From the NCBI RefSeq assembly GCF_000340215.1, contig NW_006921542.1, positions 1,206,267 through 1,270,266 of the forward strand: a stretch of 64,000 nt of DNA, written 5' to 3'. Position numbers and translations under genes: made by a program. Origin of the DNA: Pseudocercospora fijiensis CIRAD86 (Eukaryota > Ascomycota > Dothideomycetes > Mycosphaerellales > Mycosphaerellaceae). Shown piece after piece: positions 27,404 to 50,410 of this stretch (position 1 is its first letter; every line of letters begins with the position of its first letter). The notes under the pieces were generated by a model. It worked only from the letters and a program-made list of their open reading frames with translations, had not been told where the DNA came from and made no database searches.

Positions 27404-27476
27404 CTTTCCCTGGGGTGGAAGCGGCAACAGGAGAAAGCATTGTGTCAGGCAGGACAAGGCATTATCTACCTGGGAG

Positions 27477-27534
27477 ACAATGGCATTGACAAATGGCTTT
27501 CATTGCTCGGGGCAGGCCAAGGCAATGCCATTGT
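27477..27534. promoter_or_regulatory. 12-bp perfect inverted repeat in the divergent intergenic region
   Basis: ACAATGGCATTG (27,477-27,488) and CAATGCCATTGT (27,523-27,534) are exact inverted copies 34 bp apart, about 75 bp upstream of the TATA box. GCATTGT or ACAAGGCATT-like words also occur nearby at 27,438, 27,455 and 27,549. It could bind a dimeric regulator or form a hairpin; role not known. Confidence 0.45.
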
Positions 27535-28633: not shown

Positions 28634-28664
<31 letters not shown>

Positions 28665-28869
28665 GCCGCAGCCCCAACCGACGAATCCTCGCCCTGCACG
28701 CAGCAGCAGACTTGCACGCGACGCATACGACAGCGACGATACGGCTATGACCATGGGAGGTGCAGGCGCTGGCGATGTTGATCCCACACCTGAAGGACTG
28801 CAAAAGCTGAAGCATCAGTACAATGAGTACAAGCGGCGCTTGCATGCGGCCAACGGCAATGACGAATAG
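27899..28869 (+). CDS. hypothetical protein, 300 residues, two exons
   Basis: Join 27,899-28,177 and 28,246-28,869. The ATG at 27,899 begins MASMAMAEAEPVFTRMATER; no in-frame ATG lies upstream before a stop at 27,770. Exon 1 (93 codons) ends ...EWHTSYT in phase 0, and exon 2 continues QSSNKPVAAGGVAAVDHTWTN, so splicing joins two open frames exactly. The N-terminal 130 residues look folded (HTALQRPVQHGDFKVVH, EPGSLVDGVTQHVQET, RACIDFSSLL) and hold five or six His and two Cys. The rest is low-complexity: an eight-Gly run near residue 158, a Pro/Asn/Ser-rich stretch, then a Gln-Pro-Gln-Ser run, and a final charged helix (GLQKLKHQYNEYKRRLHAANG). No signal peptide or transmembrane segment. I do not recognise the family. 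It sits head to head with the 215-residue gene, 672 bp between start codons. Confidence 0.68.
28178..28245 (+). other. spliceosomal intron, 68 bp
   Basis: Donor GTACGT, a branch-like GACTGACC at 28,222-28,229 and acceptor GTGCACAG, of typical fungal size. Contains a TTTCGC microsatellite right after the donor. Removal keeps the frame. Confidence 0.78.
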
Positions 28870-28907
28870 AAGGGTTTTGGCTGCGCTCGCTCGCTGGCTC
28901 TGGGACA

Positions 28908-29201
28908 ATGGAGGGCAGACAAAGACTGCGCGCAGAGCAATGGCAGTGAATGGAGGGCAGACAAGGGCTTCGCGCAGGACAATGGCAATGCATGGAGGGA
29001 AGACAAGGACCGCGCGCAGGGCAATGGCAGTGAATGGAGGACAGACAAGGGCTTCGCGCAGAACAATGGCGATGTATGGAGGGAAGAGAAGGACCGCGCG
29101 CAGAGCAATATCAGTGAATGGAGGGCAGACAAGGGCTTCGCGCAGAACAATAGCAATGCATGGAGGGAAGACAAGGACCGCGCGCAGAACAATGGCAATG
29201 A
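28908..29201. repeat. 42-bp minisatellite, seven units in alternating types
   Basis: Units start with ATGGAGGG at 28,908, 28,950, 28,992, 29,034, 29,076, 29,118 and 29,160. From the second unit on they alternate between an AGGGCTTCGCGCAG type and an AGGACCGCGCGCAG type, so the higher-order period is 84 bp. As 42 is a multiple of 3, all unit frames without stops stay open on both strands and give 14-residue repeats; these open frames are by-products. It begins 38 bp after the stop codon of the 300-residue gene. Not RIP-mutated. Confidence 0.93.
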
Positions 29202-29877
29202 ATGCAATCTCTTTCAAATGCACATCACTGAACTAAGGCGTGACTGAGGATTGCATGGGCCGTAGGGATACTGACAACAAACAGCATGTCTAGTGAGGCA
29301 GAAGCTTCTCTTACCCTGCAATACAAGTCGTCGGGCCTCTATGAACAGACCTTGGATGATCCGTTCACCCTGTCTGTATACACAATACGCCTTCGAGCAT
29401 GACATGATGATTACCTCGTCGACGCCCATCGAATGCTGCATTGCGTCTCTGACACATCCATCACCCTCCTGGCCTCGCTACTGACTTTCCTGCTTGCCCG
29501 AGATAGAATGGCTGGCTGACTGGCCACACAACATCTTCTGAGCCTACATCAGGCCTGACCTTGACGATCCCACCCACTCACAACTCTCTCTTCCTATCCA
29601 CCCTTCGTCTCAACTACCGACACACATCCTCCGGAGTCTGGCACTGTCAGGAGGAGTCATTTTCCATTTGCCCTCCCCACAACATCTAGCATCTCATCTC
29701 CTTCATCAACGCCTGCCTCCGCCACCCAACTCAACAAACGTCCTTCCTGTTTTCGTTTCTTGTGGGCACAATAAGCTGCTGATTGATTCCAGGGAAGTGG
29801 AAACAGGTGTCTGCAGCGAGTGCGAAAGGACAACCAGACTTGTGCATGGAAGGAGACGTGTAGCGAGGGTTCACCAC
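29202..29877. other. clean-composition stretch without a confident gene
   Basis: A minus-strand frame at 29,441-29,214 would give 75 residues with several Cys, and a plus-strand frame around 29,668-29,880 without an ATG includes SCGHNKLLIDS...GVCSEC, a spacing that could bind zinc. The second frame runs into the tandem array and could be an exon of a gene destroyed by repeat growth. Neither has supporting context, so neither is called. Confidence 0.4.
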
Positions 29878-30918
29878 GGTCACACTTTGCGGCGGTCAGA
29901 CATCATGGCTGCTACGCTCACGCCCCATGGCGGCCAAACTCCACTCTCCATAGCGGCCACACTCCACGCTCAATGCCTGCTACGCTTCACGTTTCACACT
30001 TCATGGCGGCCACCCTTCACGTCTCACACTTCACGGCGGCTACGCTTCACTCTCCATGCCGGCTACACTCTACTCTCTATGCCGGCCACACTCCACGCCC
30101 AATGCCGGCCACGCTTCACGTTTCACGCTTCATGGCGGCTACGCTTCACGCTTCGCAGCGGCCACATTCCACGCTCAATGCCGGCCACGCTTCACGTTTC
30201 ACACCTCATGGCGGCTACGCTCACGCCCCATGGCGGCCACACTCCACTCTCTATGCCGGCCACGCTTCACGCTCCATCACGCTCTATGCCGGCCACAATG
30301 CATTCACGGGGTTGGCAATGCATTCACGGCGGCGACAATCCGTTCTGGCGGCTACGCTTTATGCTCTATGGCGGCCACAATGCATTCATAGGAGTGAGAA
30401 TGCCTTCACGACGGCCACAATGCATTCATAGGAGTGACAATGCGCACAGTATTCGCAAAGGCAGATCGCCTTAATAACTAATTGATGGCGGTCACAATGC
30501 ATTCACGGGGGCCACAATTCATTCACGGTGTGACAGTGCATTCATAGCGGCGACAATCCGTTCTGGCGGCCACGCTCTATGGCGGCCACAATGCATTGGT
30601 GGGAATGACAATCCATTCACGGCGGCTACAATGCATTGATGGGAATCACAATCCATTCATCGCGGCCACAATCCATTCTCCGCAGCTACAAACCATTCAT
30701 GGGGGTGCTAATGCATTAATGGGAATGACAATCCATTTATCGCGGCTACAATCCATTATCCGCAGCTACAAACCATTCATAGGGGTGCCAATATGTTAAC
30801 GGCGGTAACAATCTATTCTCGCTAGCTAGAATCCATTTATAGGGGTGCTAATGTATTAGCGGCGGTAACAATCTATTTATCGCGACTATAATCTATTCTC
30901 CGTAGCTATAATCTATTC
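29878..30918. repeat. tandem array of 21-31-bp GGCGGC-containing units, RIP-mutated at its right end
   Basis: Units such as ATGGCGGCTACGCTTCACG and ATGCCGGCCACACTCCACG (about 23 or 31 bp) fill 29,905-30,290. From there units of the type CGGCCACAATGCATTCACGG follow to the end. To about 30,700 CpA is intact. From about 30,780 to 30,918 the same units appear with CAATCCATTC as CAATCTATTC and GCTACAATC as GCTATAATC. Open frames through the array carry only repeat peptides. Confidence 0.9.
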
Positions 30919-31047
30919 TCGAGGGTAGTAATTAAAGAGTAATAGCTTAGAGCGAGAAATTCCGTATTCTTCGCTAGCTAAACCTTATACGCAAGCTTGC
31001 TAGCTCTAAGAATATTATTATATAGAGTCGGTAATCTATTTAGCTAG
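30919..31047. other. short RIP-mutated spacer left of element D1
   Basis: No gene seen. It ends in CTAG at 31,044-31,047, repeated at 50,079-50,082 on the other side of D1. Confidence 0.55.
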
Positions 31048-31391
31048 TATAGGCGGGACGAGTAGGTCGTAGGTAGAGGTACATATATAGGGAACTATAT
31101 ACTATAGGCCTAGTACTTAGTAAACTGCGAGGGGTCGGCGTAGTATTATATACTTCGAAGGGAAGGCGTTATAAATATTAAAGAGAAGAGAACGGCCGCA
31201 GGGAGGGCTACATTGTAGCTAGATTAGGTACATTTCCTATGTCTCTCTTGCTATATATTGCCGTAGCTGTATCTCCTTATATCGTATATATATATTCTAA
31301 TTATAAAGGTAGTTATGTGTTCTAGGGTATAAAAACAAGGAGGGGGGGTACAAGTATATATATAGGTGCTAAGTACGGTTTCCCTACTATA
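31048..31391 (-). repeat. 3' LTR of D1
   Basis: 344 bp, starts TATAGGCGGGACGAG and ends CCCTACTATA. It is more RIP-mutated than its partner: where the LTR at 49,735 has GTGTGTGTGTG and CACACA, this one has TATATATATA-type sequence. Confidence 0.94.
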
Positions 31392-31497
31392 TTTTCCCTC
31401 CCGGACTAAGAAGTCTACCCTTAGACTAACGCTTCCTTACCTCTCGGACTAAAAAACCTTAAACACGTAAAGAAACCAAACTAACTATCCTATAGCG

Positions 31498-31526
31498 GTA
31501 TCCTAGCTAGCTAGCTACTATACCCT
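31498..31526. promoter_or_regulatory. CTAG-repeat motif, D1 copy 4 (after the third coding block)
   Basis: TATCCTAGCTAGCTAGCTAC followed by TATACC. It lies about 107 bp inside the 3' LTR, beyond the end of the third coding block. See copies at 35,573, 40,611 and 49,198. Confidence 0.6.
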
Positions 31527-31529
31527 ACT

Positions 31530-34500
31530 ACTTATTTCTTTCTACTACGAGTCGCTAGTCTACTATAGTTACCTCTATAGCCCTAGCCGCTATAATTGCC
31601 TCCTCGCCCCTACTAGTTAAATTAGTCGATAAGAGCCTAGGTCCGCGTCGCCTTAGCCCGTATATCCTAGCGGGTCTATCGTTTATTCGGATTAGCTATA
31701 GGGTTCGTAGGCTGCTTTAAAGAAGATAGCTAAGGAGGCTGTTTCTTAGGGATACTAAGCTGCTAGGAGTTAACGTTCGGGAGTACTCTACTAGGAGTAG
31801 AGACTTTCAAAGCGTAGGTAGTAGGTTTCGCTAAAGGGGCGCTAGACTACCGCTAGTTAGTAGGAAGGTCTACCTTACTAGGTTCCTATTAGTATATAAA
31901 TCCCTAGCCTCCCTAATTAAACTCCTCCCTAGTATTAGGCGTAGGCTAATATCGGTAGAAATTATCCTAGTTTAGGCGTATATACCGATCTTCGCTATTA
32001 TTTAGGATGCAACTCTAGTCTTTTAAAGACTGTATAAGAGCCTTAAAGAATGATTTCTCCCCGAAACGTTCCTACTCGAGCCGAATAACCTTACTTAACA
32101 TCTTAGAGTATACCGACGCTATATCCTTACGATACTGCTTTAAATAGTTCTCGAGCATATATAAGGAGCCTTCTTAGTTAAGGTTGCGAAAGAGTCTTCG
32201 AATATATTACTATACTATAGTATCGTCCTACTTTAATCGACCGACGAGGGCTTCTAAGATTAGGTTATTATTACGTAGGCGCACTATAGCCGGGAACGCG
32301 TATAGAGGGGTACCGTACTTATTTGCAAGACTAGAGGGCGAGGTAGGGCTAGGAAGAAGGTCTCGATAGGTAGCGGCGAGTTCCTAAAACGTACCTCTAG
32401 CTTCGTAATCGAGCTTTCTAGTTACTAAGTCGTATCGGCAGAACTAGGGGAGTATAGTTATCCTCTCGGTGTTCTTCGGTAATGCCTAAGCGCCGTATAG
32501 AAGGTAGGGAAGGGTTAGGCGTACTCTAAGGGCACCGACCGGGTACTACTCCTAGCCTACATTTCGATACTTGCCTTTTAGCTCGTTCTTAATAAAGTTA
32601 TTAAGGGTATTCTCTATCTTAGTGTTTAGGCAATGTGTATTATAGTTAATAGAGAGAATGTAACCCCGAGGAGCGTATATAGGGCCCTTTTCCTAGCGAA
32701 GGATCTTAAGTTCCTTACACTATTTGTTAAAGACTTCTAGTTAGTAGATCCTAGCGAAGACCTTCGTAGCAGTCTCTACCGTTTTAGGAAGGAAGGATAC
32801 GGAGCCTTAAACTTAGTTTGTAGTAATACCTTCTTAGAGATCGAGAGGGTGCTAGTTAATATAGGCAAACTCGGTCGAACCGCCGTTACTAGGTTGAGTT
32901 ATCTTAGCGTAGTACGGGTAGGAGATTAGGTTAAGAGCGTAGTTAGGGCGGGTAAGGCCGTAGAGGAGCTAGTAGATAGGGTCTCCTCGGCAGATCTACT
33001 AGAACCTAGAATAGAAGGCGGTTCGAAGCCAACCCTTATTCGAGACTCTATTAACTATACGCTAATGCTAAAGGTATATTATAGCCTCTAGCTTAAACTA
33101 GTTAGATAGGGATATCTTTCCGAAGGGTAGAGGGGCCGCGGCGACTTCGACTTTCTTATTATTATACTAACCGAAGACGGCCGCTCTATATAGTTTAGTA
33201 GAGCCTTTATCGCTCGTAATGCTATCTAAGGTAATAGTACTATCTCTTACTTAGGCATCCTAGCTAGCCTTTATTATTACTCCTATACGGGAGAAGGCCT
33301 TGCGAATCTTAGTAGCAATCGCTAGGGTAACGCGTTTAATAGTTAAAGGGTTGTATATCTTGTTCTCGTAACTATAGGCCTTAGGGAAAAAACGATATAG
33401 TCTAAGGTAGTCGCTAGGGATAGGAGGACGGCGAGTCTTCCGAAATAGGTTAGGTCTCTTATTTCGAAGGCGGAGAAGGTCGTTCCGATACTTATATCTA
33501 GGGCTACTTAAGGTTTCTATTATCTGCTCTCGACTAACTTTTCCTCGAAACCTAACTACTATCCTAAATAGGTAGCGGGTATAAGTATAGCAAGGCGGGT
33601 AAGGGGCAGTTACAACTAGGGCAATTGCTCTTCCCTACGTAGCGTTATTAGATTTACTATCGTACTATATTAAAGTACTACGGTCGGCTTCCGAGAATCT
33701 ATTGCAGCTATAGTAGGCTAGGCTGTTTCTAATATAAGTGTCCTTATCGGGGGTTAGCTCCTTATAGTATATAGTGCCTCCCCGCTTAGGTCCTAAGGTA
33801 TTAAGGTCGTCGGTTAGGTTCTCCTCGAGGGGTACGGCAAGATCTCTACTCGGCTTATTAAGTCTGTTCGATCTGCGGGTCCTTCCTAGGGGGGGGATAG
33901 GCGTTATAGTCTGAATTCGACGAGTAGGCGGAGCCCCTAGAGCAAGGCTATTATTACCACTCCTACTACTAGTCCGATCGGGTAGTAAAGTAGAGTTTTC
34001 GACTAGGAGATTAGGGCGAGTCGTATTACGCTATAGAGGCGTATTTTAGCGAGAGCTAATAGGCTAAGTAGGGCGAGCGGGTAATAGCTACTAGTTGTCC
34101 TATCTAGCTAGAGGGTCGCTAGCCGGGTTGTATATAACTAGTAATCTAATAGGTATACTAATTCGCTTATATATACCTATACGGGATCGAGGGACATTAA
34201 GCCCTAGGGTCCTAGAAGTAGTACCTTTAATATAGCTACCTAGCGGTCTCGAAAAAGGGCGCCCGTCGGGAGTAATAGCAATAATAGGAGGGCCTTCGTA
34301 TTAGCTAATTCGAATACCGATAGCCTTAAGCTTCGCCTTACTAGCCTCCGTTCTCTAGGAGAAGAATTTATTCTTACCCTCCTTACGAGTGTCGTCCTCC
34401 TTATCTACTACGCAGTCCTTAGTAGTAATAGTAACGGTATTAATATCTGCCCGTCCCTATCTCGCTCTAAGCGTTCGGCGATATAGGTAATTGCTTAGGA

Positions 34501-35390
34501 TACGAAGAATAAGCTAAATTTCGGAAACCTAGCTAGCGTCCTTAAAGTTTGCGTAGTTGTTAAGCTTTCTATCCTTCTATAGCCTAAAGACTCGAGCTAT
34601 TTCTTTTACGGTATTACCTCGGATATTATAGAGGTCTAGGTAGTTCCTAAAGAATATAGGACTATTAGTAATATCGTTCTTACGGCGATCTTCCGTAGCC
34701 TTCCTACGAGTAGCGGCGGCTTATAGGGTAGCAAACTCGTTACCTATATACTGCTCGAGGGCCTATACTATAGTAGATCCTCGGGTACGAAGATTATCTC
34801 CTATTTCTTTCGGCAGTCCTTTAAAGAGCGCCTCCTTAAGCCGATAATAGGTTAGCTCCGTGCCTTTAATAAAGTTGTTAACACTTCCTAGGTTGTCGTA
34901 GATTATATCTACTTTAGTTTAGCGGGATAGGTTAGCGGATTAAAGATATTACACCTATTCGAGTAGGGTATTGTAATTGCTTAGTCGCTAGTCGGAAGGG
35001 AGGTAGGAAATACCGCTATAGGCTACGCTCGTAATAAGGTCTCGACTAGAGGCTTCTACTATTGCGCGCTTACGAGGCGGTAGAGGGGGTTTTATATATC
35101 GGGTCGCGTAGAGGAGGTAGGGGTTTATCGGTCTTTAATAGTTAATTAAGGAGGGTAGTATTTGCTATAAGCGCCTATCGCTTTGTCGAGGGAAGGGCGG
35201 TATAGGTATATTTGTTTGTAAAGAAGTTTAGGCGCAAGAAAGATCGCCTTTTTATCGTAGTAATAGCGCGGGTACGCGGGAAGGGACGGGAGGTACCTAC
35301 CTTACGCGTATACGCGCGTTTGTATATAAATCCGAAAGTAAGGCACGTATCCTAAAGGAAGTAAAGGGTTAGTAGTAGGCAGCGGCGACA
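31530..35390 (-). pseudogene. third long coding block of D1, unknown product with a gag-like segment
   Basis: On the minus strand, from about 35,280 down to about 33,000, one frame can be followed for several hundred codons; the interruptions I read are TAG and TAA, fitting lost Gln or Trp codons. A possible ATG lies at 35,391 in another frame. The early part (about 35,000-34,650) reads like a gag capsid: VNNFIKGTELTYYRLKEAL, FKGLPKEIGDNLRTRGS, then ALEQYIGNEF. Later come a basic Ser/Arg-rich linker, a TPDGRPFSRPLG segment, and a long region (YYKELTPDKDTYIRNSLAYY; FRGKVSREQIIETL; YENKIYNPLTIKRVTLAIA) I cannot assign. No RT, protease or integrase motif is visible. It is not an env by sight: no signal peptide or clear transmembrane segment was noticed. 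The last part, to 31,530, is harder to follow. Confidence 0.55.
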
Positions 35391-35572
35391 TTTCTAGAGG
35401 CCTAGGTAATTCGCGTAGTAGCGAGATTCGAGGGCGTAGGACTAGAGCACTTAGATCTAGGGAGTTAGGCATTATATAACGTACTAACCCCTCCGCTTTA
35501 ACCCCTACCGCATTGAGGCATAGTTATAAGGGCTCCTCCGGGCAGTATAGGGGTAGTAGTAGTAGTCGCAAT

Positions 35573-35599
35573 ATATCCTAGCTAGCTAGCTACTATAGG
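35573..35599. promoter_or_regulatory. CTAG-repeat motif, D1 copy 3 (before the third coding block)
   Basis: ATATCCTAGCTAGCTAGCTA then CTATAGG. In element orientation it lies about 180 bp upstream of the first ATG of the third block. Confidence 0.6.
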
Positions 35600-38500
35600 C
35601 GGGAGTTCCCGGGATTCTTAGAAATCTCGATATACCGGCCGGCGTAGGCCGTAGAAATAGTACAAAGGAAAGGTTTTTAAATAAAGGAAATCTTTAAGGT
35701 TAGGTAAGGTTTTCCTAGGCTTACTCCGTAGGGTAGGCTTCGGTTTTAGTAAGCTAGGCGTAACGTAGAGCTTCTAGTAGGTCCCCTTTTACCGAGTTAA
35801 AATTATTTACTCGCTCCGCGGGTAGGCTAGTACTTAGACTACTCCGGGGAGCAGGTCTAGGGATATTATTAAGGATAGGGGCTCCTTACTAAAGCCCCTA
35901 CCCTCGTCGGTAGTAGTATAAAGGAAAAGAAGCAACGATAGGGCTCTAGTAGTAGTACTCTATCCGGCTGCTAATATATAAAGGGACAATCGATCCTAGT
36001 ATACGTCGATAATCCGTTTAAATGCGCGAATAAGGGTACTAGCGAGTAAAAAATTCGGTATAAGGCGAGTAAATAGGAGCAAAAGAGAGGCTATACGCGA
36101 GTAGTTATAGGTTTATCGGGCCTACTAAGGTAGTAGTAGTTTATTTTCGTTGCATTCTATAGCCTACTCCGCTTCTAAGGGTTCGTTAAAAGCTCCGGGG
36201 TTTGAGCCTAGGCCCTTAGAGTTAGCGGTATAGCGGAGCTCCTCTTGTTCGATCTAGGTAAGCCGAAGCCTGTCTCGTATTCTTATTAAGGATAGCCTAT
36301 ATTCGTTGTCTCCCTAGTTCGCAACGTTGTCTATAGCCTCCTAGGCGAGAAATCTAATGCCTCGCCGCCTATATAGGTTAGTATATACTAGGGCAGCAAG
36401 GCTAGTTTCTACTAGGGCCTTAAGGAGATATAGGTTGTGTTCGAACTTTAATATGTTTATCTCGTCGTAGACCTAGACTCTCTAGGTCGTCTACTAGCTA
36501 GGGTCTCGCTATAGTACTAGTCGAAAGCTAGGGTCCTAGGTAAGCCTCGGAAGAGCGCTAACGTAGTAGGCTTGTTCGTATAGGTCCTACCTTCTATATA
36601 GAATTGCTATCTAGCCGAATCTATAGTGTTAAGCTAAAGGCTAGGTTACCTCTCCCTAGGTAAATAGGGCTAGGTAATTAAAAGCTAGAAAACTATTAGG
36701 TTCGGCCGAGCTATTAAAGAAGAGATAGTTATTCGAATAATCTTCTATAAGGGGTACGCTAAGAAGGTCTCGTATTAGGTTATTAATCTAAGAGATAGGA
36801 TTAACTTTAGGGTCGACTCGGTATATAGCTATAGTATAGGCTTAAAAGGCTCGCCTTTGCTCCTCCTTAGGAAGGGATGTAATCGTATAGACGTCTATAT
36901 CCCTTTCTTTACCGGACTTAGTATTAGACTAGCTATCGTCCCTAGACTCGGAGGACTTAGACTAGCTATCTCTATCTGCCTCGACTTCTTTATTAATAGG
37001 TTCGTTATTCGTCGTAGCAGCGTTTTTACCCGAGATCCGGTTAGGCCGGAATAGAGGTACTTCCTTTAGTCGATCGCGTAGAAAGGTAATAGCTAGATTA
37101 GCCCTATTAAGTTCCGTAAGATAGTACGAGGTTCTAGAGGCAGTAATCCCCGTAATACGAAAGGGGCCCTTCTAGCGAAAGGCAAGCTTGCTAGACCTCG
37201 AGTGCTTAATTTCGCTCCTAGTAATAAGTATAAGGGATCCAACCTTAAGGGGAGCGTTAGATACTACTCCCTTTTCGTCGTACTAGCGAGCGTTCTCCTC
37301 GCGAGTCCTCTTTAGCCGAAGGGTCGCCTCTTCGTTATCGTTAGGCATATATACTAGTTGCTAAGTACGGTATATAAGTAACGAGGTAGTGTCGCGTATA
37401 GTATCTTAGTCGACTTTTTAGAAGGTTCGGTAGGCATTCTCGATAGGAAGGATAACGTCGGCCCCTCTATATATAACTTCCGTAGGCGTTTTTCTAGTCG
37501 TTCGTCGATATATCGTTCGGTCGGCCTATAGAATAGGCGGGACGTATTTTCTCTAACTATTTATAGTACCGTTCGTTAGTTTAGAAAGGGCAGCTAGGAT
37601 AGGTCGGTTTCTAACCTCGATTTGACTATTCGCCTTCGGGTAGTATAGGGAAATCCGTACCCGGTACGTAGCTATTCGCTTAAGCAATTCCTTAGTATCC
37701 TTCCGATTCTTAGATCCGTTATCTATAACGAATTCATCCGGACAGCTATATCGGCAATAGACCTCTTCGTATAGGAACTTAGCTATTTGCTATATACTAA
37801 CCGACTTGCCCGAGTAGTTAAATATCCTCCCCTCTACCTAGCCGCTAATAACCTTACGCGCTAAGGCAATAGACCCCTTATTGTCGATATAAAGCATATC
37901 GGCAACCTAGCGACGGCTAACAACTCGAATATAGGTAGGGTAAAGCGTCCTAGCAATCTTGTATCTCTCTCGCATCCGGTATATACGATAGGACCGAACC
38001 TATATAGCGATTTAGGACTATATCCTATACTAGAAGTACCTTTTTAAGGCTAGATAGTATACTGCCTCCCGGCCTTTATAGCTATAATCCTCGTAAAGTA
38101 ATTAGATAATTTCCTCCCTAGCCTTTTCGCTATTAATTACTCGTTAAAGGGGACAATTCGGATAACGCTAGTAGAAAAGGAGCCGATCCTTAACAATATA
38201 CTTCTAGGTAGCACGTCGAACCCTTCGGGCTTCGCTTCGAGAGATGCCTTACGGAAAGCGAAGGGTCGACTTAAAGTATCCGATAAGAAGCGATTCTCGA
38301 GACTAATATTCGCCCTCGTTAAGGAAGCTAGACTTAGCTAAGAGGTCGACAGGCTTAGTCTATACTATACTATAAAAGAAGTCGTTATCGATTATATTAT
38401 CGTCGTCGATTTAGTTATCTCGTTCGACGATATCTTCTTTAGTAGGGTTACGACGGGATAGACTATTAGCCGTAGAGTGCTTCCGTCCGGGGATATGTTT

Positions 38501-40610
38501 AACTTCGAAGTCGAATAGTCGGATCTAGGCTACCTAGCGAGCTATTACCGAGTTAGGGAGGTCCGAGGCGGATTTGTTAAGCTAGTAGACAAGGGTAGTA
38601 GCATCGATTTCGATCCGAAAGTACTACCTAACGAGATACTTCTTAAACTTCTTTAGTAGTTTAAGTACGGCAAGGCACTCTCGTTTGCTAGTATTATATC
38701 GGTCTAAAGACCGCTTTCGTACCGAATAGGGTAACGCTTCTTTATATTGTCCCTTTCGCACTAGTTTAGGCTACTACTATATCCGGATCTACTCGCGTCT
38801 AATAGAAGGATAATTAACCTAGTACCCTTAGTATAATCGATCGAGATAAGAGTAGGGGTAGTAGTTAGCGTAGCCTTCAAGGTATCTATAGCGACTTGCT
38901 AATCCGGTCCCTATAAGAATTCGATATCGGCCTTTAGGAGGTAGAAGAGTAGTCTTACTATTATTACGAAGCCCTCGATCTAGATACGGTAGTAGATACA
39001 AACCCTAAGGAAGGCCCGTACGCTAGACTAGTTCTTAGGTACTAGCTATACGACAATCTTTGCAACTTTCTCTATATTAGGGTGTCTTCCGGAAATATTA
39101 ATAACGTAGCCGATATATTTTAGCTTTTTATAGAGGAACTAAGATTTTAGACCTAAAACAGTATACCTAGCACGCTTAATGTCTATAAGAACACTATCTA
39201 TCTATTAAATGTGCTTAGTAACGAATCTTCTTAGGCTAGGCTCGACCTCTTTATTATTATATCGGGTCTTCGGGCCCTTAATACTAATGTCGTCGATAAA
39301 CGGCCTCGTACGGTAGGAAATATAGTTAAAAAGGATTCTTGTTACTACTCGGACAAACTAGGTAACGGAGTTTGTCGCTCCTTACGGAAGGGTAGTCATT
39401 CGTATAAGGCTAAGCGGGGTATTAAAGGCAGTTATATCTCGATCGGCCTCGTAAAGCGGGACTTAGTCGTATCCGGAAAAGAAATCGATTAGGGACGAGA
39501 TAGTATAGTTAGCAAAATCCTCGGTAAAGCTATTAGTATTAGGAGGAAGGTTTCCGTCCTGTATTATATAGCGGTTTAGCTCTATAGCAGCGTTAATTAG
39601 GCGATATTTCTTAGTTCCTTTCTTCTAGACTAAGAACTATAGGTTCCGGTATACTCCTTCGCTAACTTTAAGTACCCTATTCGCAATTCGTTCTCGGATT
39701 ATTTCTTCTACAATGTTTACTAGGCTAGGCTAGAGGCGGAAGGTTAGTTTTCTCTAGGGTTTATAAGGAATTGTTCGGATCCGTTAGGGAGGTGCTATAT
39801 CCGCGTCGACTCTTCTAATTTCGGTAAAGCTCTAGGTAAGGGCTTTCTCCCTATTATAAAGCATTTCGTAGAACAGATCTAGCTCCTTAGGAAGAAGTTC
39901 TATTCTAATAAGAAGCTTTGCTTTCCTTTCCTTAGTTAGGCGCGAGCTACGTAGTATATCTAAGAACTTCTTAATTAGGTACTTCTAGTTATATAGCCCG
40001 GTTCTAGGCGGAAGCAACGCTTCTCGAGTAAGCCGTTTCTTTTTCTAGTAAGGGTTACTACCGGTCGTTACACTCCCGGTTATCGTAGTGCTAGCTTCTA
40101 TAGGTCTTACTTTGTCTGCCTTTTTCTTATATATACTATAAACTCCGACCGTACGGCTAGTATTCGAATCTTCCTTAAGTATTTTCTTAATAGATAGCAG
40201 CTAGGTAGGGAACCTTCGAAAGCTCTAAAACCTATAGTGCCGCTTATGCTAGTTACAAAACCTGTTCGCTTCCGACTGCTAAAGGATTGCCGCCTAGTCG
40301 TTACGAGTTATAGGTTCGAGAATTGCCTCCGTACGCCCGAGCCGGGTAAGGCTAATCGTCGGGTATAGCTAGGAAGGATCTTCGAGAAAGGACTAGCGTT
40401 ATATAGCTAGGACCGGTACGTCGTCGTATACCCGCTCCTAGATAGGGTGCCTAGCTAAGCGGCTTTTATATAGGGTACTACTAGAGGGCAATTGTAGGGA
40501 CGCGGGAATGCCGGGGCTAGCGGGAATACCGGGATAGGCCGGGGCTAGTCTAAGCGAGGTCGGAAAAGGCAGTAGGAGCGGGGGCGGGCCGACTACCGGA
40601 CTAATTAATG
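35600..40610 (-). pseudogene. pol of D1: RT, RNase H, integrase
   Basis: Minus strand, falling coordinates. About 40,600-39,900 is an N-terminal extension rich in Pro, Ser and Lys. RT about 39,760-38,800: VEEIIRERIANRVLK, KKYRLINAAIELNR, ITAFNTPLSLIRMTTLPQG, NSVTQFVRVV, the active-site box FIDD intact at 39,300-39,289 in PFIDDISIKGP, and SSVRAFLRVCIYYR. RNase H about 38,800-38,480, with HIPGRKHSTANSLSRR near its end. Integrase about 38,250-37,450: LYIDNKGSIALARKV, CPDEFVIDNGSKNRKD and YYPKANSQIEV, then RRTTRKTPTEVIQGADVILPIE. A tail with LKVGSLILITRSEIKH and FRITGITASRTLYYLTELN follows to about 37,050. The family is the fungal gypsy type with F-I-D-D and V-K-G-P after it. Stops throughout. 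Confidence 0.85.
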
Positions 40611-40637
40611 TACCCTAGCTAGCTAGCTAGTATACCC
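40611..40637. promoter_or_regulatory. CTAG-repeat motif, D1 copy 2 (before pol)
   Basis: TACCCTAGCTAGCTAGCTAG then TATACCC. Lies between the LINE insertion and the start of the pol block. Confidence 0.6.
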
Positions 40638-40657
40638 TAGAGTTACTATCCTCTTTG

Positions 40658-40672
40658 CTATATAACCCTATA
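40658..40672. repeat. target-site duplication of the LINE, left copy
   Basis: CTATATAACCCTATA, identical to 45,576-45,590. Defines the left edge of the LINE. Confidence 0.85.
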
Positions 40673-40829
40673 GATCTAATATTATTATGCTAATACCTTC
40701 TTTAAAAAGTCGGAATAGTAGCGAACAATCAGAGACGAAGGGAAGACAGTTAAGAAGGAAGGGAGGACGAATAGAAAGCACTATATACTAGGGCAGAGGA
40801 GGTGCTAAAGGCGGAAGATAGAAGAACCC

Positions 40830-41940
40830 CTAAGAGGGTATATAGGATAATAATCTTAGAACTCCTTAGAGGACTAAAAGCAATCTACAGCTAGGCAAGC
40901 TACGTAATTACAAAGGTAGCTAATACAGTCGTAGCAAAGATTACGAAGAAACAGTAGGAAACAAGCCTAAACTACCGCACCTAGGTAGTAGTAGCTAGTT
41001 AGGAGGCGCTAAAACCCCCGAGGACAGTAGTTAGAGTCTATATTACGGACCTATAGGAGCAAAAGGAAATCTAAGGACTTATAGAGAAAGAGATTGTAGA
41101 AAGAATTGCAGTTAAAGAGGTAATTAGGGCTAGGAACGAAGGAAAAGGGATAATCAAGCTGTTTATAGCACAAGAGTAGGACAAAAAGAAGCTAGAAACA
41201 CAAAAAGAATAGATAACTAAGATAGGGAAAACAGCAAAGGTCTCCTAACAGCAATTTATGATTATAGCCTATAGTATAATAAGAAGCTTTAAGGAAGAAT
41301 AGGATATTAAGAGCCTATAGAGACAAAACCAAGCTATATGCCTAGGCCTAAAGATTACAAAAGTGGTATAGATTAAAAGGAAAATCGAGGAGACTAAGAA
41401 GCAGTCTTCCCTAATTATCTAGGTAGGGAGTATAGAGCAAGCTAATATAGTGCTAGACTAGGGGTTGTTCTAGGACTATAAGAGATTAGAAACAGAGATA
41501 TATAGAAGCAACTATAGGATAATGCAGTACTTCAAATATTAATACTATAGACACTTAGTAGCTAAGTGTATAAAGACAACTAATACCTGCTCCTATTATA
41601 TAGGGGATTACTAGGTTAAAGAATACAAAGTATACAAGGGAGAAGCAAGATATATATACTACACTAAAAGACACCCCTCTTAGGCGAAGGAATGCCTAGT
41701 AAGAATACAGGCAGCGAGGAAGGCAAAGGAAGCTAGAATCAATACACTAAAAAGATATATAACAAGCTAGGGCAGCTAGGTATAGAAGCAACCTAGCTAA
41801 GTGCTACAAAAGAGGTCTAGACAAGATAATAGGTTTACATTTAGGGCCTTACTAGTACAAGAGAGTTACTAGCAACTAGGGAGACCAAGATACCTTAACA
41901 TTATAGGAAAGGAAGCAGGGCAAATAAAGCTTAGTTAAAT
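40830..41940 (+). pseudogene. LINE ORF1, gag-like nucleic-acid-binding protein
   Basis: Lys/Glu-rich helices in the first two thirds. Then GSIEQANIVLDQGLF and DYKRLETEIYRSNYRI, typical of Tad1 ORF1, directly before three zinc-knuckle remnants at about 41,530-41,690: YFKYQYYRHLVAKC, CSYYIGDYQVKEY and YIYYTKRHPSQAKEC. Several Cys and His codons have become Tyr (TAT or TAC), others survive. The frame ends with LS-stop near 41,938. Broken by TAG codons. Confidence 0.8.
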
Positions 41941-41999
41941 GTTAGTCTAAAGTGAGGGAAGACTAAAGGAAAACTTATAGGGAAATAATATAGATAAAA

Positions 42000-42760
42000 C
42001 CTAATAAACACTGCAATATTACTAAACATTATATAGTACAATGTTAACAAGAGCAAAGATAAGGTACAGAGGAGCTTCCTTTAAGTACTGAACCTAAAAG
42101 AATATTATATTATTGCAATCTAAGAGCCCTAGCTCAACCTATATATAAAGAGACTAGCAATAGTTAAAGACCTAAGATACTACCTAATTATCTACAACTA
42201 GGGAGCCCTAAGGATATACATCTATATTAGTAAGGAGATAGATATAGAAACCTAGTAGGCTCTACTATAGGAGGATAGGGACCTAATATTAGTTTAAGTA
42301 GAGACATCCTAAGGTACACTCTAAGTCTACTGCATATACAACCTACTACTAGACTTAAGAAGCAGTACCTAACTAAAAACCCTAGAAAGACTACCTAGAG
42401 TTATCTAGGGGAACACCTACTAAATCCTACTTAGGGATTTCAACCTCTACTACCCCCTCTAGGGCTTAGACTTTACCCTAGCTTACCACTTCCTAGTAGG
42501 AAGACTAATTGACATATTAGAGAGGGAAGAAATAGAAATTGTTACCCTAAAGGGACTAATTACTTAGGAGGCAAGAGGAAGCAGCAGTATACTAGACCTA
42601 TGCTTTATATTATATTAGATTAGGAACAGGATTACAAGATATAGGATCAACTAGGAACTAGAAGAATTATTAGACCACTTCCCGGTACAGATTGAGCTAA
42701 ATGTCTAAGCTAACTAGGAAGGGGAACTAGAGGAGAAGCTTAACTAGAAGGGTGCCTAAT
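42000..42760 (+). pseudogene. LINE ORF2 endonuclease domain
   Basis: Exonuclease-endonuclease-phosphatase type. Readable motifs are ILLRDFNLYYPL-GL at about 42,420-42,460 (usual form GDFNxHHPxWG, His turned to Tyr), GRLIDILEREEIEI, SSSILDLCFILY-IR (the S-x-x-D-L block) and DHFPVQIEL at about 42,675-42,700 (usual SDHxP). This domain nicks the target to start reverse transcription. Broken by stops. Confidence 0.8.
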
Positions 42761-43329
42761 AGGGTAGGATTAGGGAGGAACTAGAAAGGGACCCAAAACT
42801 AGAGAAACTCTTAACAAAGCACCTACTAGGGCTAGAGGACATTAATAAAGCAGTAGAAGAACTAATAGGAATCCTGAAACAGGTAGCTAGAAAGCATACC
42901 CTAGTAAAGAAACATTTACTATACTAGCAACTATACTAGACTAGCGAGTGTATAAGGAAGGTTAAAGTAGCAAGGAAGGCTAGGAGGTAGTAGACATAAA
43001 CCTATACCTAGGAGGCATAGGACAACTATAACAAAGCCTACTAGGAAAAGAAGATCTAGATCAAGAAAGATAAGATACAAGAATAGAGATCTATAATAGG
43101 AATAATTATAAAGAAACTAGAGGAGATATAGAGGATAGCTAAATAGGCAAGGAGACCTAAACAGGATAAGGATATGCTACTACAATTCCCGGACATTATA
43201 GACCAATAAGGACAAATATAGACTATAATAGAAGGGAAAGCAAGAGCCCTAGGCTAACACTTCTTCTATAGAAAAGTATAAGTAGACCTATTAGATATAA
43301 GGGAGATAGAACAAGAGACTCTACTACTA

Positions 43330-44700
43330 GGCATACTAAGAGACACCTAGGTCAAACCCGAAACTATTAAAAGGATCCTAAAGAAAATTCTAGGCAATAA
43401 GGCACTAGGAGAAGACAAGATCTACAACAAACTTCTAAAAGCATATAGGAAGGGGCTAGCCCTAGCACTAGCCAATATCTTTTTATAAAGCCTAGCACTA
43501 GGATACTACCTAAGACCATTTAGGAAGTCCCTAATAGTAGTGCTAAGGAAGCCCTAGAAGGAAGACTATATACAGCTTAAGGCCTATAGACCGATAGCCC
43601 TACTTAATATAATAGGCAAGGTGCTAGAAAAAATTGTCGCTAAAAGGCTAACAACCTTTGCCGAGGAAAGGAACATCCTTCCTAAAAGCTAGATAGGAGG
43701 AAGAAAGAAGAGGTTAATACTAATAGCTATAGAACTAATTATAGAATAGATCAAGTATATCTAGTACTATAGTTAAAACTAGGTAGCAACCCTCCTCTCC
43801 CTTAACATCTTAGGAGCCTTTAATAATGTCTCCTATAAAAGGCTCCTATATATACTTAAACAGAAAGCTATACTAAACTAGATAGTCTAATTTATCTAGT
43901 CCTTCCTAGAGGAAAGATCAACACAGCTTATTCTAGGCAAATTCAAATTAGACCTAATACTAACTAAAAAGGGAATCCCCTAAGGATTAACACTCTCCCT
44001 AATCCTCTTCCTTATCTTTATAGTAGACCTACTCCTACTCCTAGAATCAAAAAACACATTAGCATTAGGGTTTGTAGATAATACAAACATCCTAGCCTAG
44101 TCTAAGACAATAGAAACCAACTACAAGATCCTAGAAGAGAAGTACTAGGAGTATAAAAAATAGGCAAGGAGGCATAGAGCAAAATTCGCCCTAGAAAAGT
44201 ACTAGCTTATCCACTTTAGTAAGGCTAAATCAACCTAGAATATAAAGCAATCAATCACTATCTAAGGCTTTAAAACCCAACTATTAGCAGAGCTTAGGGT
44301 ACTAGGGATCTAGCTAGATCTAAAACTGAATTAGGGACTATAAGTAAAGAAGGCAAAGCAGAGGGCAGATGCTAATATACAATCCATTAATAGGCTTACA
44401 GCCTCTATATAGGGGGCTACATTCGAGAAAGCTAAAGTTATATACAAAGCAATTATTAAGCTAGTAATGCTATATAGAGTACAGATATAGATAGCCTAGG
44501 GGAAAACACTAAAGAGGATTAAACAACTAGTTAGTAGGTCCTAAACCCAAAGCCTAAAGAAAATCCTAGGAGTATACAAAACTATACTAATAAGGGTAGT
44601 AGAAATAGAATCAGGGATCCTACTAGTTAAACAATACTTTAAGGGACTAAGACACTAATATACAGTAAAGACAATAGAATACCTAGCCTAACAGACTATC
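43330..44700 (+). pseudogene. LINE ORF2 reverse transcriptase
   Basis: Conserved non-LTR RT blocks: KILGNKALGEDKIYNKLLKA, YRPIALLNIIGKVLEKIVAK, GGRKKR, LSLNILGAFNNVSYKRL (first Asp changed to Asn), KKGIP-GLTLSLILFLIF (GIPQGSPLSP in intact elements), and GFVDNTNILA at about 44,068-44,097. In the last the active-site FVDD is FVDN at 44,071-44,082; GATGAT to GATAAT is a RIP-type change. Thumb and connection follow to about 44,700. Not functional. Confidence 0.87.
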
Positions 44701-45400
44701 TAAAAGGCACTAGACAAGATAAAAGCCTAGTATATTAGGACTAGGAGGCGAGACAGACTACAAATAACTCCCTAGAAAGTTAAAGACCTAGAGCAATATA
44801 GAGTCTTAATAAGAGAAATGCTAGAGAAAGAGCTTTAGGGACCAAACACAAGGCTAAAGGAAGACAAACTAAAGGGAGAGAAATAGAGCCTAGCAGAATT
44901 AATTGCTAGATACCTATAGGAGCAGGAATAGAACAAAACACAAATCAGACTAGGAACCCTAAAGGCACTAATCAAATTCGGTTAGCACAACTACTAGCTC
45001 TATAAGGACCTAAACAGGGCCGAGGTAAGCCTAGCTATCTAAACTAGATCTAAACATATTAGATTCAGATCTTACCTGTTTAGAAGAAACGTCCTAGGAA
45101 TTGAAAGTAGGGCGTACTAATATAGCTACTAATCTTAGAACCCTAAGCATATACTACTAGTCTGCCCTTAATAGTTAGAAGGCAGAAGTAATTAGAGACT
45201 AAAAGCAATAGAAAGGGAATACGATAAGCTAATCTAGAGCAAAGAAGACCTAAAGAGGATAGTAAAGTAGATTATTAAATAGGGATTTGTACAACAATTC
45301 GTACTAGTAAGGGAAACTAAGGAGTGGATAAGAAGGAGGGAAGAAGAGGGGGAAAGAAGGGCAGGGCAGCAGGCAAGGTAGTTAAAGGGTAACAACTATA
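44700..45400 (+). pseudogene. LINE ORF2 C-terminal region
   Basis: Helical, charged region ending in a Cys/His segment at about 45,110-45,180, NPKHILLVCP, the C-terminal zinc-finger-like motif common after RT in Tad-type LINEs. No RNase H active site could be picked out. Confidence 0.6.
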
Positions 45401-45575
45401 ACACTAGTGCACCCTAGAGGAAGGAGAATAAGGAAATAAGGAAGATCAATACTTGTAAATAGGACAGGAGGGAGGTTTTTACTAACTAAGTTAGTTTCCT
45501 ACCTAAAACAATATATAGAAACAGACCTACATAGGCCGAAAGGCACTACAACAGGCAAATGAAATATCTATCTAT

Positions 45576-45590
45576 CTATATAACCCTATA
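45576..45590. repeat. target-site duplication of the LINE, right copy
   Basis: CTATATAACCCTATA, identical to 40,658-40,672. Preceded by ATCT repeats of the LINE tail. Confidence 0.85.
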
Positions 45591-46940
45591 ATAATATTTC
45601 TTATTAAACAATAGGTCGTAACGGTGCGTATAATATTCCTACCTAGCGGTTTCGAAAAAGGGGCGGACTCGACGCTAGTTTCTCGTCCGCTACCTAGTTT
45701 TTTAACTACTAGGTGTTATTACGACTAAGGCGCTCCTTAAGTAGGACACAATTCTTAGAGCTAGCAAGGGTAGTAAAGGTAGTAGAGCGGCCCCCGCGCG
45801 TGGAAATGGTTCCTTCCTAGGAGCCGTCGTCTATATTTCGAGCAATAAGGCGGTTCTTACGAGCCTATAGGCGACTAAGAATAATAGAGAGGTCGTTATC
45901 CCCTAGGGATATAATAAGGAAGTCGGTTTTATACTCGACATTAAAGGTAGAGATAGGAACGGAAGTGCTAATACCGATAAATTTAGCTCTTCCTCTAGCT
46001 CCTCGTATATTTAGAATAAGACCCTTTAATAGAGTAAGACTAGCTCGCTATAGGAACTTCGCGTTTAGTATATTCCCCTCGGAGCCTTTATTAATAAGAG
46101 CGCGGATCTTAAGGCACCTATTAATAGTAATAGTAATATATAGACTAGGAATAAGGGCGAAGTTGTCGTCGACTAATAAGAGGCGAATCTAGCTAGGGTC
46201 GATATAGAGCATCTCGTTAGGTAGGGCGTCTACCCCGGATGAAATAACCTGTACTATATAGCAATTAAGTCTGTTTCTCCGGCTAATCGAATTAGGGTCC
46301 CGGATAACCTCTTCGTTAGCGGCCTTATATTCCTCGTAGCTTTCTTCCTCGTTAAGGCTAGTAAAGAACTCCCGGGCGGAGGTAAGGACTAGAATAGGGT
46401 AGTCTTTAGGCCGCCTAGGTCTACCTTTCCTAGTAGCTAAGGTAGCTACCCTACCTGCTATTTCTATAATCTAGTAGGGGATCTTGTCGGTTTTATCCTT
46501 TTCTAGCTCCCGAATTCTTATAGCAAGCGCGTTGTCGTTTAGCTAGCGTATAACGAGCTTTTAATACTCCGGAATATAGGCGAGGGCCTTAGCATTGCTA
46601 AGCTATATACCGTTCCTACTAAGGAATTTCTTTACCTAAAAGTCGGGGTCCTTATAGTGTTTCTAAAGATTCTTTATAATATTAGTTGTCTTAGGCTCTT
46701 TCCGCGTAGCTCTCTACCGGCTCGGAGGGTTTACCCCCTTCGATAGTTCTTTAGCGGCAGGCTTCGGGGTAGGCGGTAGTACGTTATCTATTTCCTAATT
46801 ACTATCCTTAGGTAGGCTAGCATTACTATTTAAGGATTCAGCAGTAGGCTACCTATAGGTACTAGAAGGGCTAGCAGTAGGGGTTTTAAGACTAACCGTT
46901 TCCTTAGACTAGGTTCTTACTCTTAGAGGTAGTAGGCTCG
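45591..46940 (-). pseudogene. protease region of D1
   Basis: Minus strand. About 46,120-45,840 reads LKIRALINKGSEGNILNAKFLQ, which matches the retropepsin ALIDSGSExNxI block with Asp changed to Asn, then TSVPISTFNVEYKTDFLII and LGDNDLSIILS, the strand that normally carries ILGxxWL. It lies between the zinc knuckle of gag and the LINE, ahead of pol. The sequence between 46,200 and 46,940 is a Pro/Thr/Ser-rich linker and an unassigned charged part. Confidence 0.68.
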
Positions 46941-48654
46941 GGGACCTTTAAGTAGTTCTTCGAGGCTAGGTTTGTTTACGAATTGCTTCCTCTACCTCGC
47001 GAACGCTAAGCCCTTAAACTACGTTACGAATGCCCTTAGTCTTCGTAGTACCTTTCTGCTTAGCAGTAGCTTTCCGGATCCGATTTATATCGGCAATAGC
47101 GGTAACGGGAAGACTATTCCTAAGCGGTACATCCTAGCTACGAGTATAGGCAAGGGTATCTATAACTATAGCCGCCTCGTAGTCGCTAAAATCTAGCTCT
47201 TTATCGGCCTCCTCGACTATACTTAGATCGTAGGGCCTTTAGTATAGCATAACCCGCCTAGTAGTAGTAGGGGTAGTAGTAGGGGTAGGAAGGCCGTTTC
47301 GAGTATCGTTTAAAGCGATCCCTCCGTAGGGATTTCCCGGAGACCTTAAAGGTAGAGGGGGAAGAGTAGAAGGAATTATCGGAGCTAGGGCTCGAGGAGT
47401 CGGAACTCGAGGGCCTAGTTAAGCTATAGCACTAGGGGCTGCAGTTCGCCTTAGTTGCTAAGAAGGATAGTTAAATTGTTTTCGAAGGGCTTCTATTCTA
47501 AATTTAGGTAGGAAAACAATCTCCTACTAGTAATAGGCCTCGAGGAGAGGAAGTATAATAGCGAGCTTTAGGAGGGTAGGACTATTACGGAAGCGGAATA
47601 GGGTAGCGTATAGTGTACCTAGGGGCCCGAAGTACTACGCACGGTCCCGAATATAGTAGAACCCTTAGTCTTATATATACCGGTAGGGCCTATAGTTTAG
47701 ACGAAGGTAGCCTTTAGCTCCGTAATAGTAATAGCGACCCTCTATACTAGGGATAGATTAAAAGGCAAAGGTATCGAAGGTTAGCCCTTATACAAACTAG
47801 TTGTTATATATCTAAGTTATAGGGATATTGTCGCTCTAGAGGGGATAGAGGCGCTATAGGGCATACGAATCGGTATTAGTATTAACCGGACCTATAGTAG
47901 GGCCCCTCTAATTGTCTCGGGAGAGGACGTAAAGTTTTAGTTCTTAGAACTGCTTAATAAGGTCGTCGATACTAGGGTCCGTAACTAGCTTAAGGGCTAC
48001 CCTCTATCGCTAGATATCTAGGGTAGGGCGTATAGTCGGCATTCTTTTCTTAACTGTCTCTCGTAGCTCTTTTAAATAGCTACTGTCGTCGCTAGTAAGG
48101 AGCGAGAAGCCCTATCGGCTACGAGCTAGGTCGTACCTAGTACGATAAATCTGTTCGAAGTCGGTATAGGATTCCTTATCGTAAGGGTAGATGCTGTATT
48201 TTTCGTAGATCCGAGGCATAATAGTAGGTATAGAGCCTCCTAAGCCCTTTAGAAACAGACGGCTCCTCGTAATATTGTTAAGAAGCCTCCTCGGTATCCC
48301 TTTAGCGATACTATAGAAGTCCTAGCAAAAGCGAAGGGCATTACTCTTAGCCGTTTATCTAGTATATAGCTATTTAAGGTATTCGCGGGAGTTTAGACGA
48401 ACCGCGACATCCTAGTTAGCAAACTCGCGTTTGAACTTCTTTAAGAAGGCTTCCTACGTAAGAGGCTTACTACCTAGGAGCCGAGTAACTCGGGGTCGGA
48501 TACTAGTTTTATAATTGGCTACAAGGAGCTTTACCGTAGTAGCCGTTTTAGCCCTTAGATAGTATCGCTTAAGGATAGTAGAAAACCTTTTAACAAAGTT
48601 AGTAGCGTTTTCTCTAGTAAAGAGGGGGTTCTTAACGGTCCCTAGGAGGGGCAT
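46941..48654 (-). pseudogene. gag of D1
   Basis: ATG at 48,654 begins MPLLGTVKNPLFTRENATNF, the PxF.G.xxTxFL start of fungal gypsy gags, with 66 codons open before the first stop. Capsid-like helices follow (FLKKFKREFAN, LRFCQDFYSIAKGIP, SRLFLKGLGGSIPTIM). A zinc knuckle at about 47,736-47,677 reads RYYYYGAKGYLRLNYRPY: C-x2-C-x4-H-x4-C with all four metal ligands turned to Tyr. A Pro/Thr-rich linker with PTPTTTPTTTRR lies near 47,300. Spacing to the 5' LTR leaves about 1.1 kb of leader. Confidence 0.78.
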
Positions 48655-49734
48655 CTACGGCTTCAAGTCCGAGAAGGCCTAAAGAAGACCTTAGAGAAGT
48701 TAAGGGGATAGCCCTCCGGTTGCCTAGATAAGCTACTAGGGAACTTCTCGAGTACCGCCCTCCTAGGTAGTACCTCCTTAAGCCGCTTCTCTATTTTCTA
48801 TACTAGTATCCTTATCGCTTCCCGAGGCCGTAGTCCTCTCGGTATCCGAGTTAGTATCGAGGCAGTTGCGAATGAAATTTAGAGGTAGGTCTCGGTAGGT
48901 ACCGGTATTAGAGGGGGCCTATAGAGGCGGTTTAGCCGGGGTAGGGTTATTATTGTTTTCTTAGGAGCTTATCTCGTCGGTAGAACAAACAATTTATAGA
49001 AGACGATAAACGATTAGAATAAATAGGAAGGATACAGTATCGATAAAATTAGATAGGTTGCTAGGTATACTTAAGGTAAGGAGGGAGCGTAGACGGGCTA
49101 TAGCGTACTTTATAGTACGTATCGCGTCTGTGTCCTCGAAGCAAGGGGAGGGTAGGCGGTAGTCCGTATACACATAGAATAAAGGGGGCGGCGAATGTTA
49201 CCTAGCTAGCTAGCTAGCATACCTGCTATACCCGCTCTAGGCCCCCTTTGTTCCTCTCTATTAATTTCTATTAACTCGCAGTATGCCGATTACGGTACCG
49301 CGGAAGGGTCGTAATAGCCCGGAAGGAGGTTTTAAGTTAGGCTCGCGCCGATTAGCGGAAGGGATAGGGGGCTGTCGACTTTTTAGGGTTCTTCGTATCC
49401 CTATCTCTAGTTTCTTATAGCGGGCTCTTAGGTTTCTTTCTATATAGGTCGTTTCTTATAAGGTCCCGCCTACTATAGACAGGTAGGGAGTCGTAACATT
49501 CGTAAACAGTATTTCCTTTTGCTTTAAGTCGGTAACGGTATTCCTTTTACTTTAAGTCGGTAACGGTTTATTAGTAGTAGGACGTCTCGATACTACTAAG
49601 GTCTTTTTAGCGGTAGTATTATATTAGTAGTATAGTCCTCGCTCTAGGCGAAGGCTGTAAACGTTTCTTCTTAACTATATATATACCTGCACCTTCAAAT
49701 GAATAAAGATAGCCCTACCTTCGGCTCTAGAAAA
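48655..49734. other. leader of D1 between 5' LTR and gag
   Basis: About 1.1 kb without a clear gene. It contains CTAG-repeat motif copy 1 at 49,198 and a direct repeat of TTCCTTTTGCTTTAAGTCGG at 49,510 and 49,545. A few minus-strand frames near 48,700-49,000 are short. Confidence 0.5.
49198..49223. promoter_or_regulatory. CTAG-repeat motif, D1 copy 1 (before gag)
   Basis: TTACCTAGCTAGCTAGCTAG then CATACC. In element orientation it lies about 540 bp upstream of the gag ATG. Confidence 0.6.
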
Positions 49735-50078
49735 TATAGGCGGGACGAGTAGGTCGTAGATAGAGGTACATATATAGGGAACTGTATACTATAGGCCTAG
49801 TACTTAGTAAACTGCGAGGGGTCGGCGTAGCATTATATACTTCGAAGGGAAGGCGTTATAAATATTAAAGAGAAGAGAACGGCCGTAGGGAGGGCTACAT
49901 TGCAGCTAGATTAGGTACATTTCCTATGTCTCTCTTGCTATATGTTGCCGTAGCTGTATCTCCTTATATCGTGTGTGTGTGTTCTAATTATAAAGGTAGT
50001 TATGTATTCTAGGGTACAAAAACAAGGAGGGGGGGTACAAATATACACACAGGTGCCAAGCAGGGTTTCCCTACTACA
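49735..50078 (-). repeat. 5' LTR of D1
   Basis: 344 bp, starts TATAGGCGGG and ends CCCTACTACA with the CA end kept. It still has GTGTGTGTGTG near 49,973 and ACACACAGG near 50,044, which are TA repeats in the partner LTR. Followed by CTAG. Confidence 0.94.
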
Positions 50079-50082
50079 CTAG

Positions 50083-50410
50083 TTAATCTAATCAATCTAG
50101 ACCCCCCTAAGTTAAATTAGATTACTAGTACCCCTAGATTAGATTGAATTAGATTGCTCTAGTAAGAGCTAAATTAGATTAGATTGCTAAATTAGTAGGA
50201 ATAAGCTAAATAAAATTAGATTAAATTGCTAAGCCTACCTAATTTAGATTAAATTAGATTTCTTTAAAAAGGGCTAGCTTAAATTAGATTTCTTTAAAAA
50301 GGACTAGATTAAATTAGATTACTTTAGAAAGGAATCGGATTAGATTAAATTAGATTGCTTAATTAGTAGGAATAGGCTAGATTAGATTAGATTAAACTAC
50401 TAAGCTAATC
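50083..50410. repeat. AT-rich minisatellite of TTAGATTA words
   Basis: Imperfect repeats of AAATTAGATTAGATTGCT-like units, some carrying TTTCTTTAAAAAGG inserts. Strongly AT-rich compared with both sides. No gene. Confidence 0.85.

Follow-up and report, generated by a model that had tools for sequence, protein, structure and literature searches.

A repeated, directional motif at the coding-block borders of a three-block, putatively Ty3-type LTR family in Pseudocercospora fijiensis, a candidate cis-acting border signal

LTR retrotransposons are generally taken to produce a single RNA with one or two polyproteins, and their usual expression employs a single genomic mRNA with a frameshift, a readthrough or one splice. 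Among described fungal elements, the Ty3/gypsy (Metaviridae) elements of Mycosphaerella (Pseudocercospora) fijiensis (PMC3562529) share with the element considered here, D1, the TG...CA LTRs and heavy CA-to-TA RIP, as well as, in candidate form, a retrotransposon-type RNase H, and D1 falls in the size range of 6-20 kb stated there. Unlike those elements, D1 carries a third block after pol, its blocks are separated, and a short motif stands at every border. No such border motif is found in the available text of the fungal LTR-element accounts PMC3562529 and PMC3248453; PMC4241990, checked for a similar repeat, concerns another thing in the text available. Among the matches listed in a literature search, there is no description of the motif or of several transcription units in LTR elements.

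The motif carrier is one LTR family of ~14 kb, taken as Ty3-type. D1 with its CTAG duplication spans 19.0 kb in the window (the whole 64,000-nucleotide stretch analysed), of which 4.9 kb belong to a later insertion lying 43 bp from motif 3; without the insertion the span is ~14.1 kb. Features are collected in Table 1. The sense strand of the element is the minus strand, and border motifs 1-4 are therefore listed as (-). The window LTRs start with TA (RIPed), and the TG start and CA end are visible in several other D copies. A Pfam domain scan covered 40 stop-to-stop pieces, 32 of them on the minus strand. It recognised an RNase H piece of 48 aa at 38627-38770 (-) (RT_RNaseH PF17917, E 2.3e-4, 21.7 bits, under the curated cut-off of 24.8), and the middle block is therefore taken as pol; gag and the third block are so called from their position. 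The gag block holds a weak aspartyl-protease-like piece (46051-46188, E 0.023). Reverse transcriptase and integrase were not recognised among the 40 pieces, and the remaining domain matches, with E from 0.034 to 0.16, were taken as chance. For the third block nothing fell below E 0.16 in Pfam among the pieces scanned, with no recognised envelope; in PDB the best E was 0.12 for one piece with no match for another, and a protein search with one piece gave no homologue at E 0.01.

Table 1. Features of D1 and of the later insertion, in window positions
Feature	Position	Strand	Remarks
CTAG target duplication, 4 bp	left half 31044..31047, right half 50079-50082	.	seen in window copy
3' LTR	31048..31391	-	344 bp
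Border motif 1	31502..31517	-	directly after third block; 110 bp before inner end of 3' LTR
Third coding block, approximate limits	31540..34926	-	three-phase model and codon-phase pattern; product unassigned
Border motif 2	35577..35592	-	spacer separating pol and third block
Pol block, approximate limits	35881..40362	-	three-phase model and RNase H piece
Border motif 3	40614..40629	-	gag/pol gap; also retained in C17 relative (L211)
Later insertion, not part of D1	40673..45575	.	~4.9 kb; 43 bp from motif 3; TATATAACCCTATA at both ends
Gag block, approximate limits	45697..49139	-	three-phase model
Border motif 4	49201..49216	-	leader, upstream of gag, 518 bp inside 5' LTR
5' LTR	49735..50078	-	344 bp; 94% identical to other LTR over 342 aligned bp

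The 4.9-kb insertion resembles a non-LTR element whose mutation signature departs from that of the surrounding DNA: it has a 14-bp duplication, a TATC-repeat tail and an A excess on the plus strand, and CpG stands at 0.06-0.23 of expectation over 41-45 kb. Its eight pieces gave no Pfam match; a non-LTR family with an average length of 4.9 kb is mentioned in the available text of PMC4981457. The stretch 27000-30900 is a G+C-rich island adjoining the RIPed D1, mostly without a RIP signature and with 42- and 20-bp tandem repeats. Elsewhere in the genome a cluster of reverse-transcriptase matches was seen at G000:C7:3576124-3601974, and two of these are the only ones without an inner stop among 150 scored genome-wide, one of them lying in a 1413-codon open frame.

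The exact motif CCTAGCTAGCTAGCTA occurs at the four sites of Table 1 without a mismatch and, as read in the window, on the plus strand at all four. The original prediction of four copies thus proved right, each copy beginning 3-4 bases to the right of where it had been placed. The predicted following pattern [CG][CT]ATA[CG][CG] was also found, as CTATACC, CTATAGG, GTATACC and GCATACC, and the flanks common to the four copies beyond the core are TATR[CG] on the sense 5' side. The core had been described as a 16-bp palindrome; strict palindromy holds for the 14-mer TAGCTAGCTAGCTA, but not for the 16-mer. In a scan of 31,040-50,081 with a matrix of the four 35-bp sites, those four score 46-52 bits, with no fifth site (the next non-overlapping match has 18 bits) and a best score of 25 bits in 40 order-3 simulations. 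The four-copy border motif as observed is confirmed as real. Two further candidates were set aside: a motif copy inside the LTR, a likeness by eye only that the matrix scan did not bear out, and extended dyad arms, which by eye were convincing at site 1 alone and are not claimed.

The placement of the motif at coding-block borders largely holds. In an unsupervised three-phase model all four motifs lie in, or two bases outside, non-coding stretches, and D1 has spacers, not overlapping frames, between its blocks. Codon-phase mismatch between old and young copies shows third-block coding reaching within ~40 bp of motif 1 (p 8e-18), and this test overruled the spacer that the three-phase model had placed beside that motif. 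By the same comparison gag coding stops ~150 bp before motif 3. The third-block side of motif 1 is thus clear, but the gag-like periodicity near motif 4 is weaker, beginning within ~200 bp after it. Around motif 2, uneven phases occur in several 120-bp windows to its left and right, with p down to 2.7e-5 and no consistent phase, and this region is therefore read as non-coding spacer. In the three-phase model the distance from a motif to the next coding block varies from ~60 to 650 bp.

The tie of the motif to D elements, a point that the original prediction had named for checking, was assessed on the 73.9-Mb assembly on which the genome-wide counts were made. There are 184 exact copies, against 2 for the reversed control, and among the 100 of the 184 that were listed, 88 are in D-family site matches, 10 lie at or near D spacing from a D site, and 2 fall outside D copies. 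A longer degenerate pattern that fits sites 1, 3 and 4 has 144 genome matches (control 0); the 100 listed are all in D copies: 93 have a D protein piece no more than 4.5 kb away, and the other 7 lie at D border-site matches. Among young copies, scored as the best 40 each of 58, 57, 65 and 54 candidates at sites 1-4, the exact core is present at the same four borders in 135 of 160 site-copies, i.e. in 22, 37, 38 and 38 of 40 at sites 1-4, respectively.

Uniformity of this kind must be read against the RIP that the element has undergone. CpA and TpG are at ~0.1-0.35 of expectation in the element outside the insertion, and RIP is saturating, 13.4 kb of element containing 0 CCAG and 0 CTGG with CTAG at 16.2 per kb. 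The statement that RIP cannot erode the motif was half right and is not supported in that form, CTAG being the RIP end product of CCAG and CTGG. At young site 1, 18 of 40 copies end in a RIP-able TG instead of TA, and today's uniformity of the motif is therefore partly RIP-made. A CTGG unit is kept in one of the 160 young site-copies, a count that does not decide between a pre-RIP CTAG and CCAG/CTGG because CTAG-context columns elsewhere keep almost none (residual CA/TG in 3 of 75). Completeness of RIP was observed to be context-dependent, with residual CA/TG of 0.1% in CTAG-context vs 35% in TTAT-context cells across the 3-kb loci L002-L068. Saturation of this order, with so little CA/TG surviving in CTAG context, gives some ground for regarding the motif as a pure artefact, i.e. 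four unrelated sequences made alike by C-to-T change. However, RIP merges CA, TG and TA only, and the remainder of the tandem, as well as its length and flanks, must already have been alike before RIP; moreover, simulations under order 1-5 Markov models fitted to the motif-masked element, 150 for each model, give an expectation of 0 to 0.013 15-mers per 13.4 kb of such RIP-like sequence, against 4 observed. The matrix scan, too, tells against an artefact. Such an origin is very improbable.

The copies might alternatively be scars: recombination or insertion would have joined the blocks at a short repeat that was then copied along and is functionless today. If the element was put together from modules, one short sequence shared by all joints is to be expected, copying alone yields a fixed family-wide spacing, and CTAG is very common in RIPed DNA. 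On this account, however, drift of the motif should equal that of its flanks, and old copies bear on the point. Old border stretches were located from third-block, gag and pol piece searches, of which the third-block search gave 59 genome matches, 17 at <=88% amino-acid identity. Of 60 divergent border stretches compared, 41 aligned and 37 covered the motif (8, 9, 13 and 7 at sites 1-4). In these 37, with both sequences RIP-saturated, identity over the 22-bp motif window is 0.903, 0.985, 0.979 and 0.922 at sites 1-4, and that over the rest of the stretch 0.792, 0.844, 0.803 and 0.805. At every site the motif window beats both directly adjacent windows; windows further off can match its conservation, above all at sites 1 and 4, those conserved at least like the motif numbering 72/634, 10/635, 5/580 and 56/569 at sites 1-4.

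Other CTAGs within 350 bp were used as a control because RIP undoes transitions inside CTAG. Retention was 101 of 114 cells for the CTAG units of the motif vs 244 of 358 for the other CTAGs, an odds ratio of 3.6, with p of 0.21, 0.034, 0.0004 and 0.002 at sites 1-4; site 1 is not significant, and these p-values overstate the evidence because the copies are related and the cells share ancestry. The control thus gives support, not proof, for sequence conservation of the motif. The motif appears to drift less than nearby DNA in old copies, and therefore to reflect more than inheritance in one burst. This lesser drift, together with an orientation and length identical in all four copies, speaks against the scars, which are a rather unlikely explanation of the motif.

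Retention in old copies is incomplete. The motif is kept at the same borders in other D copies and, among the copies listed, is rare outside them, and neither of the two outcomes named as telling against the original prediction was obtained, but 22 of the 60 divergent stretches lack any 11-base part of it; their places were guessed, and motif loss, site loss and misplacement are indistinguishable there. When 19 of these 22, plus L214, were scanned, the best match had 4-6 mismatches. A further stretch, L167 (1 of the 23 not covering the motif), contains the greater part of the motif right where its alignment ends, and some old copies, e.g. L183, L194, L202, L206 and L209, have altered cores. 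The most distant relative aligned at site 3, L211 on contig C17, with 68% flank identity and amino-acid identities of 35% in gag and 71% in pol, has a perfect 14-mer at the gag/pol border. In this C17 relative the motif was found at site 3 only, with none at the guessed places of the borders in L212-L214, L228 and L229. As to the location of old D matches (<=88% identity), 16 of 17 rows are on contigs C11, C13-C16 and C21, and 7 of 42 younger rows are, some rows being parts of one copy; these contigs are putative dispensable scaffolds if numbered as in the available text of PMC4981457.

Because of its one orientation, its family-wide borders and its conservation, a directional cis signal is favoured. 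The motif may act in cis as a conserved, directional signal that marks the borders of the three-block LTR family; an internal promoter or a border element is its likeliest form, and this reading is put forward tentatively and short of being called probable. A start or border signal acting at the DNA level is likewise the first choice among the readings considered, again as a tentative one. In the active element, a protein of the host or of the element itself would have bound the motif as DNA, and the bound motif would have started or delimited separate gag, pol and third-block transcripts in place of one polyprotein mRNA. There is no gene downstream of motif 1 and none upstream of motif 4, and neither a pure start nor a pure stop signal fits all four copies because motif 1 has no downstream and motif 4 no upstream gene; the copy after the third block might close the last unit, or might be a non-essential fourth copy. 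The fuller scheme, in which each of the three blocks would be bounded by one repeated cis signal and the separate gene units would be expressed from within, is possible but doubtful.

Action at the RNA level, as a cleavage, splice or translation-restart element between blocks, would also suit the layout: release by cleavage needs four sites flanking three blocks, as found, and in today's sequence the sense TAG units put a stop codon in each of the three frames. Minimum-energy structures of sites 1, 3, 4 and L211, but not that of site 2, fold the core into a hairpin of 5-6 bp, and folding is not clearly better than that of shuffles (z -1.15, -0.34, 1.00 and 1.02 at sites 1-4, 1.88 for L211); the RNA hairpin, as no better than shuffles, was rejected. 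Rfam has no match at the gathering threshold in 31000-50200, and RIP may have made both the stop codons and the palindrome. Visual inspection with a splice acceptor in mind showed no CTAAC resembling a fungal branch point upstream of the motifs. An RNA-level role is unlikely.

A different DNA-level role would be as a binding site of the element's integrase or of another element protein, the motif being a tandem of the insertion-target tetranucleotide. The D family prefers a CTAG target: CTAG lies directly outside the 5' LTR in 15 of 27 copies vs 285 of 20925 positions (1.36%) in the same flanks, as counted on the 5' LTR side only for loci L009-L038 (30 loci, 3 of which lacked a readable LTR end), and CTAG on both sides, as a target duplication, is seen in the window copy only. 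The tie between this preference and the border motif is, however, a four-base resemblance only, and CTAG is the commonest of six tetramers counted in element DNA. The target CTAG is mostly followed by T, unlike the TAGC tandem of the motif, and the insertion targets may themselves be RIPed. A binding site of this kind is quite improbable. For the preferred directional border signal, an LTR family with gene-by-gene signals would, if true, represent a different expression plan. The idea is testable, since more than 50 border candidates per site, young and old, exist in one genome, and comparison with other CTAGs, both sequences being saturated, offers an approach to detecting selection on short motifs in DNA where RIP is complete.

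One short, same-orientation sequence per gene border is a familiar arrangement in the gene-junction signals of non-segmented negative-strand RNA viruses and the body signals of coronaviruses. The comparison with D1 is an analogy of layout only, D1 being a DNA-integrated LTR element. Among LTR elements, the errantiviruses (Drosophila gypsy, ZAM; PMC5408687) have three coding blocks, as does D1, whose third block differs in having no recognised envelope in the pieces scanned. In the available text of that account errantiviruses, like D1, prefer palindromic 4-bp targets, which are TATA, CGCG or ATAT in their case and CTAG in that of D1. Some errantiviruses also carry repeats in the untranslated region (PMC5408687); the short D1 repeat is found at every border and is not confined to the 5' leader.
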